Shown one piece after another: positions 1-8,427 of a DNA stretch of 64,000 bases (positions are counted from its first letter, which is position 1; the number at the start of each line of letters is the position of its first letter). Origin of the DNA: Halobellus litoreus (GTDB lineage: Archaea; Halobacteriota; Halobacteria; Halobacteriales; Haloferacaceae); the NCBI RefSeq assembly GCF_024464595.1, contig NZ_JANHAW010000002.1, positions 620,001 to 684,000 on the forward strand, in the 5' to 3' direction. The notes beneath the pieces were generated by a model, which ran no database searches, was not told the DNA's origin, and saw nothing but the letters and a program-made list of their open reading frames with translations. The translations under genes were made by a program, and so were the position numbers.

Positions 1-1
1 C

Positions 2-168
2 GCGAACGCCCCGGGAACGACCGGTGACGCGGACGGTCCGACGGCGGCCGACGACGCGGACGGTTCCGACCAGTTCGACGGGTACGATACCGAGGGCGGG
101 TTCTCCTGCGGCGTCGAGAACTGCTGCGGCGGCCCATCGACCGACGCCGAACATCACGGAGACAACGC

Positions 169-172
<4 letters not shown>
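2..172 (+). CDS. C-terminal end of a gene upstream of coxL, probably a CO dehydrogenase small or medium subunit (partial)
   Basis: The reading frame is open from the left edge and stops at 170-172, so that the stop overlaps the coxL start codon as ATGA. The visible 56 residues are a low-complexity acidic Gly/Asp/Ala linker followed by a tail containing FSCGVENCCGG. No domain is visible, so identity rests on position: CO dehydrogenase subunit genes are normally adjacent and co-translated (coxM, coxS, coxL), and the gene before coxL is usually coxS, the [2Fe-2S] subunit. The cysteine-rich tail is not one of the canonical CoxS iron-sulfur motifs. It could also be the end of coxM or of an accessory gene. 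Confidence 0.5.
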
Positions 173-2673
<2,501 letters not shown>

Positions 2674-2829
2674 GACGAGCCGTTGGACCCCCTCCGGTGA
2701 TCGCACCTCGACGGCGGCGATCGCCGGTGAGGGAGCGGACCGTGCCGAGGCGCGCCGGCCAGATCGACCCCGCGCGGGTCGGCGTTCGGCGACAGCCCTA
2801 TCGGCGCTGCCGACGTGGACACATCGACA

Positions 2830-3960
2830 ATGACGGGGAACGATTCACGCGCTTCGATCGACGATCCGCCGCATCGAGCGACCGTCAGCGACGGCGACGT
2901 CGCCGAGTTGGAGGCAGCGCTCACGGATCGAGGCGAACCCTACGCCCGAGTGACGATCGTCCGCCGGGAGCCGCCGGTGTCGGCGAACGTCGGCGACCGC
3001 GCCGTCGTGACGCGGGACGGCGAACTTCACGGCTGGATCGGCGGCGCGGCGTGCGCGCAGACGACCGCGATCAGCGAGGCGAAAGCCGCGATGGACGACG
3101 GGAAGCCCCGATTCGTCGGCATCGCGCCCGATCCCGACGAGATCGACCGGCCGGGGCTGGAGGCGTTCCCGATGCACTGTCACAGCGAGGGCGTCCTGGA
3201 ACTGTTCGTCGAACCGGTGAACCCGACGCCGGAACTGCTCGTCGTCGGCGACTCGCCGGTCGCGCGGTCGCTCTCGCGACTCGCGGGCGAACTGGCCGTC
3301 GACGTCGTCCTCGTCGATCCGGACGCCGGCGACGACCACGACGCGGACCGAGTCGTCACGACAACCGATCCCGATGCCGTCGTCGAGGCCGTCGGCCGGT
3401 CGCCGCTCGTCGTGGTCGCCTCGATGGGCAAGTACGACGCCCGCGGGGTCGCCGCCGGCGTCGCGGCCGACGCCGCGTACGTCGGCCTCGTCGCCAGTGA
3501 CGCGCGGAGCGGCGAGGTGATCGAACGGGCGGCGGAACTGCTCGAGACGGATCCCGAGCGGGTCCGAGCGGTCGTGACGAACCCCGCCGGCGTCGACATC
3601 GAGGCGTACACGCCGACCGAAATCGCCGTGAGCATCCTCGCGGAAGTCGTCGACGCGCGAGCGAACGCCGGGAGCGCACGGCGACCGGCGGCCGAAGCGC
3701 AGCAATCAGCAGAGGGGACTGAGTCGGAGTCGAGCGGGGCCGAATCGGCCGCCGGAGAACCAGCGGAAAGCGACGCGACCGAAGACGGAACTGGGGCGGC
3801 CGACCTCGCCACCGACCCCGTCTGCGGGATGACGGCCGATCCGGAGACGGCGCCGGCCGTCGACCACGACGGGGAGACGTACTACTTCTGCTGTGCGGGC
3901 TGTGCGGACTCGTTCCGCGAGGAGCCGGAATCGTACCTGGAGCGCGGGGAGGCAGCGTGA
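2830..3960 (+). CDS. CoxF/XdhC-family maturation protein with a C-terminal YHS metal-binding domain
   Basis: Residues 1-275 resemble the XdhC/CoxF/CoxI family: an N-terminal XdhC-type segment with GWIGGAACAQ, then a Rossmann-like half starting at ELLVVGDSPVARSL. In bacteria these proteins take part in inserting or processing the molybdenum active site; CoxF is implicated in copper insertion. An acidic Ser/Glu/Ala linker (about 283-325) leads to a YHS domain (about 328-371) with TDPVCGM and YYFCCAGC, giving cysteines at 332, 354, 355 and 358. YHS domains occur in copper and heavy-metal proteins. The fusion is unusual. An in-frame GTG at 2815 would add five residues; I chose the ATG. The stop overlaps the coxD GTG start (GTGA). 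Confidence 0.85.
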   Translation: MTGNDSRASIDDPPHRATVSDGDVAELEAALTDRGEPYARVTIVRREPPVSANVGDRAVVTRDGELHGWIGGAACAQTTAISEAKAAMDDGKPRFVGIAPDPDEIDRPGLEAFPMHCHSEGVLELFVEPVNPTPELLVVGDSPVARSLSRLAGELAVDVVLVDPDAGDDHDADRVVTTTDPDAVVEAVGRSPLVVVASMGKYDARGVAAGVAADAAYVGLVASDARSGEVIERAAELLETDPERVRAVVTNPAGVDIEAYTPTEIAVSILAEVVDARANAGSARRPAAEAQQSAEGTESESSGAESAAGEPAESDATEDGTGAADLATDPVCGMTADPETAPAVDHDGETYYFCCAGCADSFREEPESYLERGEAA

Positions 3961-4943
3961 CCCGCACCGCGTTCGCGTCGCTGTCGACGTCGGATCTCGA
4001 AGACCGCTTCCGAGCCGAGGCCTACGTCGCGGACGACCGGACGGTCACGACCGTTCACCTCGCGCTGACGCTCGGCAGACCGCTGCTCGTCGAGGGGCCG
4101 CCGGGGAGCGGCAAGACCGAACTCGGGAAAGTCCTCGCGAGCGCGTTCGACACGGAGCTCATCCGACTGCAGTGCTACGAGGGGCTGACCGCCGAGAACG
4201 CGCTCTACGAGTGGAACTACACGAAGCAGTTGCTCGCGGTGCAGGCCGACGAGGGGACGGTCGCGGGCGATTCGGCGGCCGCCGGAACGGTCGACTCAGC
4301 AAGCAGCGGTTCCGCGTCGGAGGAGGTGGCGAAGCGTCGCTCGGTCTTCGACGAGGAGTACCTGCTCGAACGGCCCCTGCTCCGTGCGCTCACCGCCGGC
4401 GACGCCCCTCCCGTGCTGCTCGTCGACGAGATCGACCGCGCGGACGAGGAGTTCGAGGCGTTCCTGCTCGAACTGCTCTCGGACTTTCAGGTCTCGATTC
4501 CGGAGTTCGGGACCGTCTCGGCCGACCAGCCACCGATCGTCGTGCTCACGTCGAACCGCACGCGGGGGCTGTCGGACGCGCTGAAGCGTCGGTGTCTGTA
4601 CCTCCACGTCGAACCCCCCGACTTCGAGGACGAGTACGAGATCGTTCGGCGGAAGGTCCCGGAACTCGACGCGGCCGTCGCCGCGGAGGTGTGTGCGGTC
4701 GTCAGCCGTCTCAGGGAGGAGGCGTTCCTCAAACGCCCCGGCGTCGCCGAGACGCTCGATTGGGCCCGGGCCGTGGCGCAACTGCGACGCGACGAGGAGG
4801 ACCGACCGCTCTCGACGGGCGAAATCGAGCGAACGCTCGGCTGTCTGCTCAAGGAGGCCGAGGACTTCGACCGGATCGACACCGCGTTGCTCGAACAGCT
4901 ACAGGCGGCCGCAGCGGCCGCCGAGGACCGCATCGAAGCCTGA
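3957..4943 (+). CDS. coxD: CoxD, MoxR-type AAA+ ATPase for CO dehydrogenase maturation
   Basis: AAA+ ATPase of the MoxR group. CoxD of Oligotropha is required for sulfuration of the molybdenum centre of CO dehydrogenase. Walker A is GPPGSGKT (residues 47-54) and Walker B is LLVDEID (154-160). The helix-2 insert expected of MoxR proteins follows, and a sensor/arginine region is visible as LTSNRTRGLSDALKRRCLY. About 30 residues of Ala/Ser-rich sequence (99-125) interrupt the ATPase core and look like a haloarchaeal insertion. It starts with GTG overlapping the previous stop and ends 6 bp before coxE. MoxR ATPases work with VWA proteins, matching the neighbour. Confidence 0.92.
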   Translation: MTRTAFASLSTSDLEDRFRAEAYVADDRTVTTVHLALTLGRPLLVEGPPGSGKTELGKVLASAFDTELIRLQCYEGLTAENALYEWNYTKQLLAVQADEGTVAGDSAAAGTVDSASSGSASEEVAKRRSVFDEEYLLERPLLRALTAGDAPPVLLVDEIDRADEEFEAFLLELLSDFQVSIPEFGTVSADQPPIVVLTSNRTRGLSDALKRRCLYLHVEPPDFEDEYEIVRRKVPELDAAVAAEVCAVVSRLREEAFLKRPGVAETLDWARAVAQLRRDEEDRPLSTGEIERTLGCLLKEAEDFDRIDTALLEQLQAAAAAAEDRIEA

Positions 4944-4949
4944 TCGACG

Positions 4950-6410
4950 ATGAACGCGAACGCAGGGGACCCGGCGGAGCCGGCCGCGGCCGAGGAGTCG
5001 GACGCGAGCGAGGGGACGGCCGCGACGGCGTCCGACGGGGGCGTCCCGGCCGACGCGACGTCCGAGGGCGTCCCGGACTTCCGGGCGGCGCGGCGACACG
5101 TCCTGATCGAACTGGTCAGACTCGCCGCGAAGCTCCGGAGGGAGAACGTCTCCGTGCCCCCCAGCGACACGCTGGCGGCCGCGCGGGCGCTCTCGGTCGT
5201 CGGCCTCGGCGACCGCGACCGCGTCGAGGACGCGCTCCGGGCGACCTTCCTCTCCGATCCGGCCGACGCCGACGCCTTCGAGTCCGCGTTCCCGACCTTC
5301 TGGCACCGGCTTCGGTCCGGGTTGAGCGCCGTCGCGACCGACCACGACGGGCCGACGGCCGGCGACGACGAGGCCAACGAGGTCGGTGAGTCGGCGGACG
5401 CCACCGACCCCGAGACCGACGGCGCGGAACCCGGCGTGTTGGAGGACGCGGAACCGCCGGACGTCGACGACACCGACGGCGGCGGCGGGGCAGTCGAGGT
5501 CCGGATCCCGACGGAGCGCCGGCACGCGACGGGCGACAGGCCGGAGTCGACCGGCGAGAGCGACGCGCGCCGATACAGCGCCGTCGGCGGGCGCGAGCGC
5601 GTCGACGTCGACGCGGCGCGGTTGACGCCGGCCGAGACGGTCGCCATCGACCGCTTCGTCGACGCGCTATCGACGGTTCCGGGCCGTCGCCGCCAGCCGT
5701 CTTCGACCGGCGACCGGGTGGAGGCCAGACGGGCGCTGCGCGCGAGTCTGGCGACCGGCGGCGCGCCGATGGAACTGCCCGCCTCCCGACCCAGGCCGAG
5801 CGAGCTGCGGTGCTGTCTCCTGGTCGACGTGAGCGGCTCCGTCCTCGATACCGTCGACCGGAGCGTGCTCCTGGCGTTCGCCGACCGGTTGCACGACAGC
5901 GCCCGCGACGCCGGCGTGTTCCTCTTCGACACGGACCTCGTCGACGTCACCGAGCAGTTCGAACGCGGCGACGGCGACCCGGCGGCGGCGCTGAAAGAGG
6001 CAGAGGTCGAGTGGGGCGGCGGGACGAAGATCGGCGAGGCGTTCGCGACGCTCCGCCGCGAGCACCCCTACGCCGTCGACCGCCGGACCGTCGTCGTGGT
6101 CGTCAGCGACGGCCTCGACGTCGGGGACCCGGACGTGCTGGCCGACGGCGTCACCTGGCTCGCGGATCGCGGGGGCGCGCTCGTCTGGCTCAATCCGCTG
6201 GCCGTCTCGCCGGCGTTCGAACCGCGATCCCGCGGGATGTCGACGAGCGTACCGTACGTCGACGCCCTGTTCGGGTTCGCCGATCCGGGGGACCTCGCGG
6301 AGGCGGCGCGACAGATCGAACAGCGTGGGCTCGGCGGAACGGTCGGGTACGAGTACGATTCCCGTCGCGCCGAGAAGTCCGGGGCCGACACCGGAGGTGA
6401 CCCGTCGTGA
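4950..6410 (+). CDS. coxE: CoxE, VWA-domain partner of CoxD
   Basis: A 486-residue VWA-containing protein. The C-terminal VWA domain carries an intact MIDAS motif, LVDVSGS (residues 291-297), a later threonine site in GGGTKIGEAF, and VVVSDGLD. The N-terminal third is a helical region (VLIELVRLAAKLRRENVSV) typical of CoxE proteins, followed by a long acidic linker (about 130-205). CoxE works with the CoxD ATPase, and in bacteria CoxE and CoxF are implicated in adding copper to the Mo-S centre. The stop overlaps the GTG start of the next gene, so the two are translationally coupled. Confidence 0.9.
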   Translation: MNANAGDPAEPAAAEESDASEGTAATASDGGVPADATSEGVPDFRAARRHVLIELVRLAAKLRRENVSVPPSDTLAAARALSVVGLGDRDRVEDALRATFLSDPADADAFESAFPTFWHRLRSGLSAVATDHDGPTAGDDEANEVGESADATDPETDGAEPGVLEDAEPPDVDDTDGGGGAVEVRIPTERRHATGDRPESTGESDARRYSAVGGRERVDVDAARLTPAETVAIDRFVDALSTVPGRRRQPSSTGDRVEARRALRASLATGGAPMELPASRPRPSELRCCLLVDVSGSVLDTVDRSVLLAFADRLHDSARDAGVFLFDTDLVDVTEQFERGDGDPAAALKEAEVEWGGGTKIGEAFATLRREHPYAVDRRTVVVVVSDGLDVGDPDVLADGVTWLADRGGALVWLNPLAVSPAFEPRSRGMSTSVPYVDALFGFADPGDLAEAARQIEQRGLGGTVGYEYDSRRAEKSGADTGGDPS

Positions 6411-7249
6411 GCGACTTCCTCGCGACGGCTCGCGATCGTCTCCGACCCCACGTCACGGACGCGACGAGAGTCGATCGGATCACCGTCGGCGACGCGGCGG
6501 TCCTCGTCGAACTGATCGACGGGGAGTCGTCGACGGCCGGCCTGGCGCATCGGCCGTCGGGCGAATCGCTCTCGACGGCCGAGTCGATGCCGACGGCCGA
6601 TCGGAGCGTCGAGTCGTTGTTGTCGGCGGCGACGGCGCAGGAAGCCGGTGAATCGACCGCCGATCGCGGGCGACGGGCGCTCGCGATCGCGACGATGAAC
6701 GCGCTGTCGGCACCGCTCGTCGACTGGCGGCCGGGCGACCCGATGGCGTTGCTGTCGGACGACGTCGAACGAATCGCGACCGTCGGGCTGTTCACCCCCG
6801 CGTTTCGGAAGTTCGACGGCGTCGAGGTCCGCGTGATCGAACGCGAGCGGATCGAGGAGGTCCCGGACCCCGACGGCGTCCGCGTCCGGGCGTTCACCCC
6901 CGACGAGGCCGCCGCCGCGATGAACGACGCGGACGTCGTCTTCGTGACCGGGTCGGCGTTCATCTACGGCGGCGTCGAGGCGTACCTCGACGCGGCACCG
7001 GCCTCGGCGACGGTCGTGGTGATCGGCGCGACGGCATCGTTCCTCCCCGACCCGCTGTTCGAGGCGGGCGTCGACGTCGTCGCTGGCGCCACGGTGACCG
7101 ACGCCGACGGAGTCAGTGCGGCACTACGGCAGGGGGCCTGCGGCACCGACCTGCACGACGCGGGGCTGCGAAAGGTGTATACCGCCCGAGCGACGCCGTC
7201 GGGGATTCGAATCGACGCGACCGACGCAGCCGAGGATCTTACTACATAA
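6407..7249 (+). CDS. DUF4213/DUF364-type protein (putative heavy-metal chelation family) in the cox operon
   Basis: A 280-residue protein with the arrangement of DUF4213 plus DUF364. The N-terminal half contains ALAIATMNALSAPLVDWRPG. The C-terminal half contains TVGLFTPAFRKF, DVVFVTGSAFIYGG and VVVIGATASFLPDPLFEAGV, which correspond to the conserved blocks of DUF364, a family named in Pfam as putative heavy-metal chelation. No biochemical role is established. It overlaps coxE by 4 bp (GTGA) and sits 5 bp before the second XdhC-family gene, so it belongs to the cox operon. DUF364 proteins often occur with molybdenum or other metal systems; a role in Mo or Cu handling is inference. Confidence 0.75.
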   Translation: MSDFLATARDRLRPHVTDATRVDRITVGDAAVLVELIDGESSTAGLAHRPSGESLSTAESMPTADRSVESLLSAATAQEAGESTADRGRRALAIATMNALSAPLVDWRPGDPMALLSDDVERIATVGLFTPAFRKFDGVEVRVIERERIEEVPDPDGVRVRAFTPDEAAAAMNDADVVFVTGSAFIYGGVEAYLDAAPASATVVVIGATASFLPDPLFEAGVDVVAGATVTDADGVSAALRQGACGTDLHDAGLRKVYTARATPSGIRIDATDAAEDLTT

Positions 7250-7254
7250 CCGAT

Positions 7255-8427
7255 ATGACACAGAGCAACTGGAGCGTTCCCGAGACGGAAGTCGTACAGC
7301 AGATCCGTGACCGACTCGACGGTGATCGAACCGACGTCCTGGCGACGATCGTCGACGTGGAAGGGAACGCCTACCGTCGACCGGGGGCGAAGATGCTCCT
7401 CGACGAGGGCGGGTCGGGCGTCGGCAGCATCACCGCCGGCTGCCTCGAAGACGAACTGCTCGCGGTCGGGGATCGCGTGCGGGAGACCGGGGAGACCGAA
7501 CTGGTCACGTACGACCTGATGAACGACGACGACGAGGACGTGTGGGGGCTCGGCGTCGGCTGCAACGGCGTCATCGAGGTCCTGCTCGAACCCCTGACTG
7601 AGACCTACCGCCCCGCGGTCGAGGCGTTCTTCGGCGGGCGCGACGTGGCCGTCGTCACCGTCCTCGACGGCGGCGAACGGTTCGAGCGGGGCGACCGCGT
7701 CTACTACTACCCGGACGAGGGTACCCTTGAGTCCCCCGACGGATCGGAAGCGACCGGCTGGCCGGTCGACGCGCTGTCGGGTCCGGCGGCCGAACTCGCC
7801 GCCCGGGGGAAGGCGGGGACCGTTTCCCTCCCGGACGGCGCGGACGAGCTGACGGTGTTCGTCGACGGACTCGCCGCGCCGGACGAGTTGGTCGTCTTCG
7901 GCACGGGCCACGACGTGCGGCCGGTCACGGAGTTGGCGTCGAAGAACGACTTCCGCGTGACCGTCGTGGGGTTCCGCGGCGCGGTCGACCTCGACGAGCG
8001 GTTCCCCGACGCCGACCGGACCGTGACCACGTCGCCGGCCACCGTCGGTGACGACCTCGACCTCGACGAGCGGACGTACGCGGTCGTGATGACGCACAAC
8101 TTCGTCGACGATCAGTTGACCGTCGAATCCCTGCTGGACGCCGGCGTTCCCTACGTCGGGGTGATGGGACCCCGCGAGCGGTTCGATCGGATGCTCGATG
8201 CCTTCGAGGACGACGGCCGGCGCTTCGGAGAAGAGACGCTGTCGTCGGTGTACACGCCGGTCGGTCTCGACCTCGGGGGCGGGTCGCCGTTCCAGATCGC
8301 CCACAGCATCGTCGCCGAGGTGCTCGCGGTCTCGAACGAGCGGACGCCGCGGCACCTCAAGCGCCGCGAGGGTCCGATTCACGAGCGGGTCGACGTCGAA
8401 TCCGACGCCGACGCGCCGGCGCAGTAG
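7255..8427 (+). CDS. XdhC/CoxI-family molybdoenzyme maturation protein
   Basis: A full-length XdhC-family protein of 390 residues. The N-terminal XdhC domain shows TIVDVEGNAYRRPGAKMLL and GSITAGCLEDELL, and a GLGVGCNGVIEVLLEPL block follows. The C-terminal Rossmann domain begins at ELVVFGTGHDVRPV and includes VMTHNFVDDQ and YVGVMGPRERF. In bacteria XdhC binds the molybdenum cofactor and delivers it after sulfuration; CoxI is the paralogue in cox clusters. Here it is the last gene of the operon. Unlike the CoxF-YHS protein, it keeps the GC-E motif (AGCLEDE) of the family, so it is the more conventional cofactor chaperone. Confidence 0.9.
   Translation: MTQSNWSVPETEVVQQIRDRLDGDRTDVLATIVDVEGNAYRRPGAKMLLDEGGSGVGSITAGCLEDELLAVGDRVRETGETELVTYDLMNDDDEDVWGLGVGCNGVIEVLLEPLTETYRPAVEAFFGGRDVAVVTVLDGGERFERGDRVYYYPDEGTLESPDGSEATGWPVDALSGPAAELAARGKAGTVSLPDGADELTVFVDGLAAPDELVVFGTGHDVRPVTELASKNDFRVTVVGFRGAVDLDERFPDADRTVTTSPATVGDDLDLDERTYAVVMTHNFVDDQLTVESLLDAGVPYVGVMGPRERFDRMLDAFEDDGRRFGEETLSSVYTPVGLDLGGGSPFQIAHSIVAEVLAVSNERTPRHLKRREGPIHERVDVESDADAPAQ

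Follow-up and report, generated by a model that had tools for sequence, protein, structure and literature searches.

A CoxF protein with a C-terminal YHS domain accompanies form I CoxL in haloarchaea and Chloroflexota and is a candidate copper-loading factor for Mo-Cu CO dehydrogenase

Introduction

The route by which copper reaches the Mo-Cu site of CO dehydrogenase has been followed by genetics in one alphaproteobacterium, Oligotropha (Afipia) carboxidovorans, the sole organism with a studied CoxF. Its coxE and coxF mutants produce a CO dehydrogenase without copper (PMC4240915). Each of these mutants lacks both the CoxF and the CoxE protein (PMC4240915), and the copper defect is therefore not assignable to CoxF alone. 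In the model proposed for this organism, CoxF takes copper from phytate by means of a phytase motif, RHGQRQS, and binds CoxE through an RGD motif (PMC4240915). Compared with XdhC and CoxI, Oligotropha CoxF has two additional residues in the motif that carries its proposed copper cysteine, M107CPSHGTM (PMC4240915). The protein is encoded on pHCG3 (L057:6986-7828), where coxD and coxE belong to the same form I cox cluster, and is 280 amino acids long; it contains XdhC_CoxI and XdhC_C domains with GGxC and CxSxG motifs, and has no YHS domain.

Among YHS proteins, the closest described case is the adenylyl cyclase of Mycobacterium phlei, which has a C-terminal YHS domain in which one Asp and three Cys were proposed as copper ligands by analogy (PMC4626032). 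This domain is fused to a cyclase, and its demonstrated role is copper response, not delivery (PMC4626032). A CoxF-like arrangement with YHS is found in Thermomicrobium roseum, in the XdhC family protein TRD_RS11740 (L054:5977-6987; YHS E-value 7.9e-16), which lies after coxL; CO oxidation has been measured in this organism (L054; PMC2615216). The form I genes of T. roseum are trd_A0564-6 according to PMC2615216, and PMC6776052 calls trd_1206-1215 type I. The latter paper also names a Thermogemmatispora operon coxMSLIG, the coxI of which is possibly a gene of the kind described here under another name. Our literature search, which was thin on subscription journals, found no publications on the combination of YHS and XdhC domains, and none since 2018 on CoxF with CoxL maturation.

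Results

The window (the whole stretch of DNA analysed, 64,000 nucleotides from Halobellus litoreus) contains a gene whose product combines XdhC_CoxI, XdhC_C and C-terminal YHS domains, each scoring above the curated Pfam cut-off (Table 1). An alternative GTG start at 2815 would give an open reading frame of 2815-3960 and 381 amino acids. The protein has six cysteines (ATG numbering), every one of them within a motif: Cys75 in GGAAC, Cys117 in MHCHSEG, Cys332 in DPVCGM, and Cys354, Cys355 and Cys358 in FCCAGC. Cys117 aligns with the cysteine of the proposed copper site of Oligotropha CoxF (PMC4240915). The core matches the XdhC-family structures 2we7, 2we8 and 3on5 by sequence and by fold. In an AlphaFold2 model the core and the YHS domain were confidently predicted and the linker between them was disordered (pTM 0.51), so that the placement of YHS relative to Cys75 and Cys117 is not readable from this model. 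The same three-domain architecture was found again in proteins of about 40% to 80% identity from dozens of genomes, adjoining CoxL wherever the contig extends far enough; the fusion is therefore not a product of chance.

Table 1. Features of the coxF-YHS gene and its neighbours in the window
Feature	Position	Strand	Basis or remark
Form I coxL	169..2673	+	TIGR02416, 1225 bits vs cut-off 991; AYRCSFR in translation
coxF-YHS gene	2830..3960	+	376 aa from ATG 2830
XdhC_CoxI domain	2926..3117	+	Pfam 1.9e-13; contains GGAAC with Cys75 (3052-3054)
CoxF signature MHCHSEGVL	3172..3198	+	Cys117 at 3178-3180; alignment, motif test
XdhC_C Rossmann domain	3235..3648	+	Pfam 1.7e-20
Acidic linker of CoxF-YHS	3670..3810	+	Disorder predicted; weakly constrained (median dN/dS 0.80)
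YHS domain (PF04945)	3811..3942	+	Pfam 1e-12; 48.2 bits vs gathering score 30.3; pLDDT ~90
Putative YHS ligands	Asp329 3814-3816, Cys332 3823-3825, Cys354 3889-3891, Cys358 3901-3903	+	Conservation
coxD, AAA+ ATPase	3957..4943	+	Start overlaps coxF stop
coxE, VWA domain protein	4950..6410	+	Pfam VWA_CoxE 1.4e-41
DUF364/DUF4213 'putative heavy-metal chelation' protein	6407..7249	+	Pfam
Second XdhC, CoxI type	7255..8427	+	CNG in place of CxSxG, no YHS

CoxF and the CoxI/XdhC family (the window protein at 7255-8427, 2we7 and 3on5) share the XdhC_CoxI and XdhC_C domains and a related fold. CoxI/XdhC proteins differ from CoxF in having CGG or CNG in place of CxSxG, in lacking YHS, and in occurring also beside form II and other molybdenum hydroxylases. 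The C-x-[SG]-x-G insertion and the GGxC cysteine were present in all 96 CoxF sequences compared, and CxSxG was absent from all 40 CoxI-type proteins in the loci examined. At this place CGG is read in almost every XdhC paralogue obtained from haloarchaea, Chloroflexota and Pseudomonadota. A quick tree, built from a short search, separated 81 CoxF rows from nine XdhC paralogues with a support of 86. The window protein contains the CxSxG insertion and no CGG-type motif, and was ruled out as CoxI or XdhC proper. These motifs, the form I coxL partner and the grouping in the tree together identify it, at the level of sequence, as CoxF, and on the same motifs the protein at 7255-8427 is the CoxI-type XdhC of the cluster. 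In two other haloarchaeal stretches (L160:6364-8313 and L161:5663-7525) an XdhC paralogue carries an additional fused domain, which plasmid records label YqeB (selenium-dependent Moco biosynthesis); genes resembling CoxL and CoxS lie next to it.

The earlier note on this DNA had described a CoxF-like protein fused to YHS, with cysteines in TDPVCGM and YYFCCAGC, directly after form I coxL. The motifs are present as quoted, motif and tree place the protein with CoxF, the YHS domain exceeds its Pfam cut-off with its ligand residues conserved, and the gap to the preceding coxL (1225 bits with TIGR02416) is 156 bp.

The order of genes in the window cluster is coxG-M-S-L-F(YHS)-D-E-DUF364-XdhC(CoxI type). 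Around coxL it is L-F-D-E, as against L-D-E-F in Oligotropha. T. roseum resembles the window in the three-domain architecture and in the position after coxL, and differs in its shorter, non-acidic linker and in the absence of coxD and coxE from the stretch shown. Every one of the 23 long cox clusters from haloarchaea encodes the DUF364/DUF4213 protein, and no bacterial cluster that was counted does so. Haloarchaeal CoxS proteins (the 3' end of coxS occupies window positions 1-172; also L005:9456-10172 and L059-L151) have a C-terminal extension with a conserved CGxENCCGGP-like motif, possibly a further metal site. Almost every haloarchaeal cluster seen has it, and the bacterial CoxS tails listed do not. 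An extra CC motif that resembles this tail (SCCAGG, ASCCGGG) is found in the linkers of some Natrialbaceae-type coxF-YHS genes (L052, L053, L059). PADLOC gave no match.

The occurrence of the fusion was recorded in systematic samples of 391 Halobacteria, 251 Chloroflexota and 299 Pseudomonadota genomes, where CoxL positives were those above the TIGR02416 cut-off and counts are of genomes, not of independent events; other groups are represented by single cases. CoxL exceeded the cut-off in 41 Halobacteria, and exactly these 41 had a strong same-strand CoxF match next to CoxL. By query coverage or reading of the locus, CoxF-YHS was present in 40 of them. The sole haloarchaeal exception, L149 (L149:7338-8447), has lost YHS but retains an acidic tail; its neighbouring form I CoxL is intact. 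A frameshifted YHS was considered for this gene and rejected, as the start of coxD spans the coxF stop and there is no frame left that could encode YHS. In Chloroflexota, 54 genomes had CoxL over the cut-off, and a profile match covering the YHS part was found in 53; in the missing case (G625) the contig ends inside coxF. Thus CoxF-YHS is paired strictly, almost one-to-one, with form I CoxL in haloarchaea and Chloroflexota. A fusion common in genomes without form I CoxL would have refuted the reading of the earlier note, and this was not the case: it was found in 0/350 Halobacteria, 0/286 Pseudomonadota and 1/197 Chloroflexota lacking CoxL, the one case (G497) being a match that begins at contig base 8. 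The remaining 80-odd listed Chloroflexota genomes gave core matches only, without YHS. In the haloarchaea the tightness of the association may reflect a single acquisition of the operon, since the haloarchaeal CoxF form one clade in the quick tree.

All 13 of the Pseudomonadota genomes with CoxL have CoxF, and CoxF-YHS was found in none of the 299 sampled (0/13 with CoxL). Plasmid-borne CoxF-YHS lies beside CoxL in T. roseum, Natronorubrum, Paraburkholderia and Caballeronia, the last two being the genera of Burkholderiales with the fusion. The CoxF of Deinococcus AJ005 (L056:5998-7059) has a degenerate YHS in which two of the three conserved cysteines are gone, and those of Oligotropha, Marivivens and Nonomuraea (the one actinomycete, standing for Actinomycetota) have none. 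YHS is missing from L149 and from all sampled alphaproteobacteria, so that some CoxF proteins do without it. In the stretches fetched around clusters with such a YHS-less CoxF, no gene for a separate YHS was found. A genome search with a two-sequence alignment returned 18 loci, mostly of close relatives. The earlier note had confined its question to archaeal genomes; the tie to form I coxL holds in haloarchaea, and the archaeal scope proved too narrow. An archaeal-only fusion was rejected, as Chloroflexota normally have the fused protein, and it is found beyond them in Burkholderiales and, degraded, in Deinococcus. The quick tree, with a long Burkholderiales branch and an XdhC outgroup devoid of YHS, needs two changes of YHS among CoxF proteins.

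Conservation of the YHS domain was assessed in 81 fused proteins, each from a different locus. In DPVCGM the Asp was present in 78/81 and the Cys in 80/81, and the outer cysteines of FCxxxC in 80/81 and 81/81. The position of Cys355 is not conserved, with Cys in only 51/81. The window domain has the set of one Asp and three Cys proposed elsewhere as metal ligands. Among 25 haloarchaeal genes mean identity was 0.71 in YHS, 0.71 in the core and 0.15 in the linker, and the linker also varies in length. Median dN/dS in these genes was 0.29, 0.32 and 0.80 respectively, values that serve as a comparison between regions and not as absolute measures because synonymous sites are near saturation. The YHS domain is under purifying selection, with a constraint similar to that on the core, and the linker is nearly free.

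The CoxL partner of CoxF-YHS carries the copper-binding cysteine in the motif [AS][YF]xCSF; the form II motif, AYRGAGR, is without the active-site Cys. Five stretches (L123, L127, L128, L131 and L134) contain a form II CoxL near a form I cluster. In each, CoxF-YHS is in the form I cluster only, and form II CoxL is in the part of the stretch without YHS, mostly with a CoxI-type XdhC. The same division was seen in a Thermomicrobium genome, where the form II cluster contains coxD, coxE and a YHS-less XdhC, and the form I cluster consists of coxMSL followed by CoxF-YHS only. In Thermomicrobium HR28 (G407, L172) a coxG-S-L-M-D-E-XdhC cluster carries the form II motif AYRGAGR; in gene order it resembles T. 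roseum trd_1206-1215, the genes termed type I in PMC6776052. Among 35 long Chloroflexota stretches CoxF-YHS was present in all, coxD in 10 and coxE in nine, so that 25 of them have CoxF-YHS without CoxD. CO oxidation has been measured in a haloarchaeal carrier of the fusion, Halobaculum WSA2 (L076; PMC5743682). Other YHS matches on plasmids were mostly heavy-metal P-type ATPases, one of them named as copper-translocating.

Discussion

Copper is the likely metal of CoxF-YHS, judging from its pairing with the CoxL that has the copper cysteine, the lack of YHS beside form II enzymes, and the copper-free enzyme of the Oligotropha mutants. The reading that we favour, with moderate confidence, makes the YHS domain a copper-loading module that works in cis within CoxF, the latter acting as a maturation factor of Mo-Cu CO dehydrogenase. 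Copper binding by this YHS domain and handover to CoxL are suggested by the conserved residues and the genomic pairing. In such a mechanism the XdhC part would dock on apo-CoxL and handle the sulfurated Mo centre, while the tethered YHS domain would capture a copper ion with Asp329, Cys332, Cys354 and Cys358. The flexible linker would allow YHS to reach Cys75/Cys117 in the core and the Mo-S site of apo-CoxL; copper would pass by ligand exchange from YHS to the region around these cysteines, then to the Mo-S site and to the CSFR cysteine of CoxL. Several observations count against copper loading. CoxF lacks YHS in alphaproteobacteria, in one actinomycete and in L149, where the stretches fetched gave no separate YHS gene either. 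The YHS part also matches phenol hydroxylase subunits, whose role is not copper delivery, and the Oligotropha mutants with the copper defect had lost CoxE along with CoxF.

In a different role for the domain, YHS might bind zinc, or might be a docking module, stabilised by a metal or free of one, that places CoxF on CoxL, CoxS or CoxD, with copper handled only by the XdhC core (Cys75/Cys117), as in Oligotropha. A CoxF without YHS suffices in alphaproteobacteria, the YHS relatives of known structure that sequence comparison recovered are subunits of phenol hydroxylase, and among relatives in the YHS/TRASH group L24e has Cd as its metal and the toluene hydroxylase structure has none (PMC4626032). 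We nevertheless regard this role as rather unlikely, because the fusion accompanies the copper enzyme only, and not the form II enzymes with their XdhC paralogues, and because its ligands are the same as those put forward for a YHS domain that responds to copper. The M. phlei adenylyl cyclase, which carries that responsive domain and is the C-terminal YHS fusion with biochemistry behind it, is activated by Cu2+ (PMC4626032); in both proteins YHS stands equally at the C-terminus, behind a working domain. CoxF-YHS could by this likeness be a copper sensor or gate, with CoxF turned on by copper binding and the Mo site left alone whenever copper is lacking. However, a linker that is long, variable in length and nearly unconstrained is more easily reconciled with a tethered carrier than with an allosteric switch, and a sensor seems to us distinctly improbable.

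Confinement of the fusion to the copper enzyme also weighs on the idea that the conserved cysteines carry persulfide and serve sulfuration of the Mo centre rather than copper insertion. XdhC proteins do act in Moco sulfuration, and the enzyme of the Oligotropha coxF mutant also has less Mo-S (PMC4240915), but sulfuration is common to XdhC-dependent enzymes, and we give this idea very little weight. That YHS is a functionless passenger retained by common descent is scarcely credible. Its loss in L149 and its degeneration in Deinococcus AJ005 are what a passenger would show, but elsewhere conservation disfavours this: the three cysteines persist in 80/81, 80/81 and 81/81 proteins, and dN/dS is as low as in the core, across archaea and bacteria.

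The RHGQRQS and RGD motifs of Oligotropha CoxF are nearly absent from other CoxF proteins: the phytase pattern occurred in 1/96 and RGD in 5/96, and they are therefore no general feature of CoxF. It is conceivable, though on balance we doubt it, that the YHS-fused form is the general and perhaps original CoxF, that YHS is the copper-loading site in maturation of Mo-Cu CO dehydrogenase, that the model organism has lost it, and that the Oligotropha copper route rests on motifs found almost only there.

With a metal-ligand domain built into CoxF and tied to form I CoxL, copper delivery becomes testable on a single protein. The minimal coxMSL-F(YHS) clusters point to a simple set of genes with which the enzyme might be produced heterologously. 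The fusion also serves, in haloarchaea and Chloroflexota, as a clear-cut genomic marker by which the copper-containing CO-oxidising enzyme can be told from its form II look-alikes.
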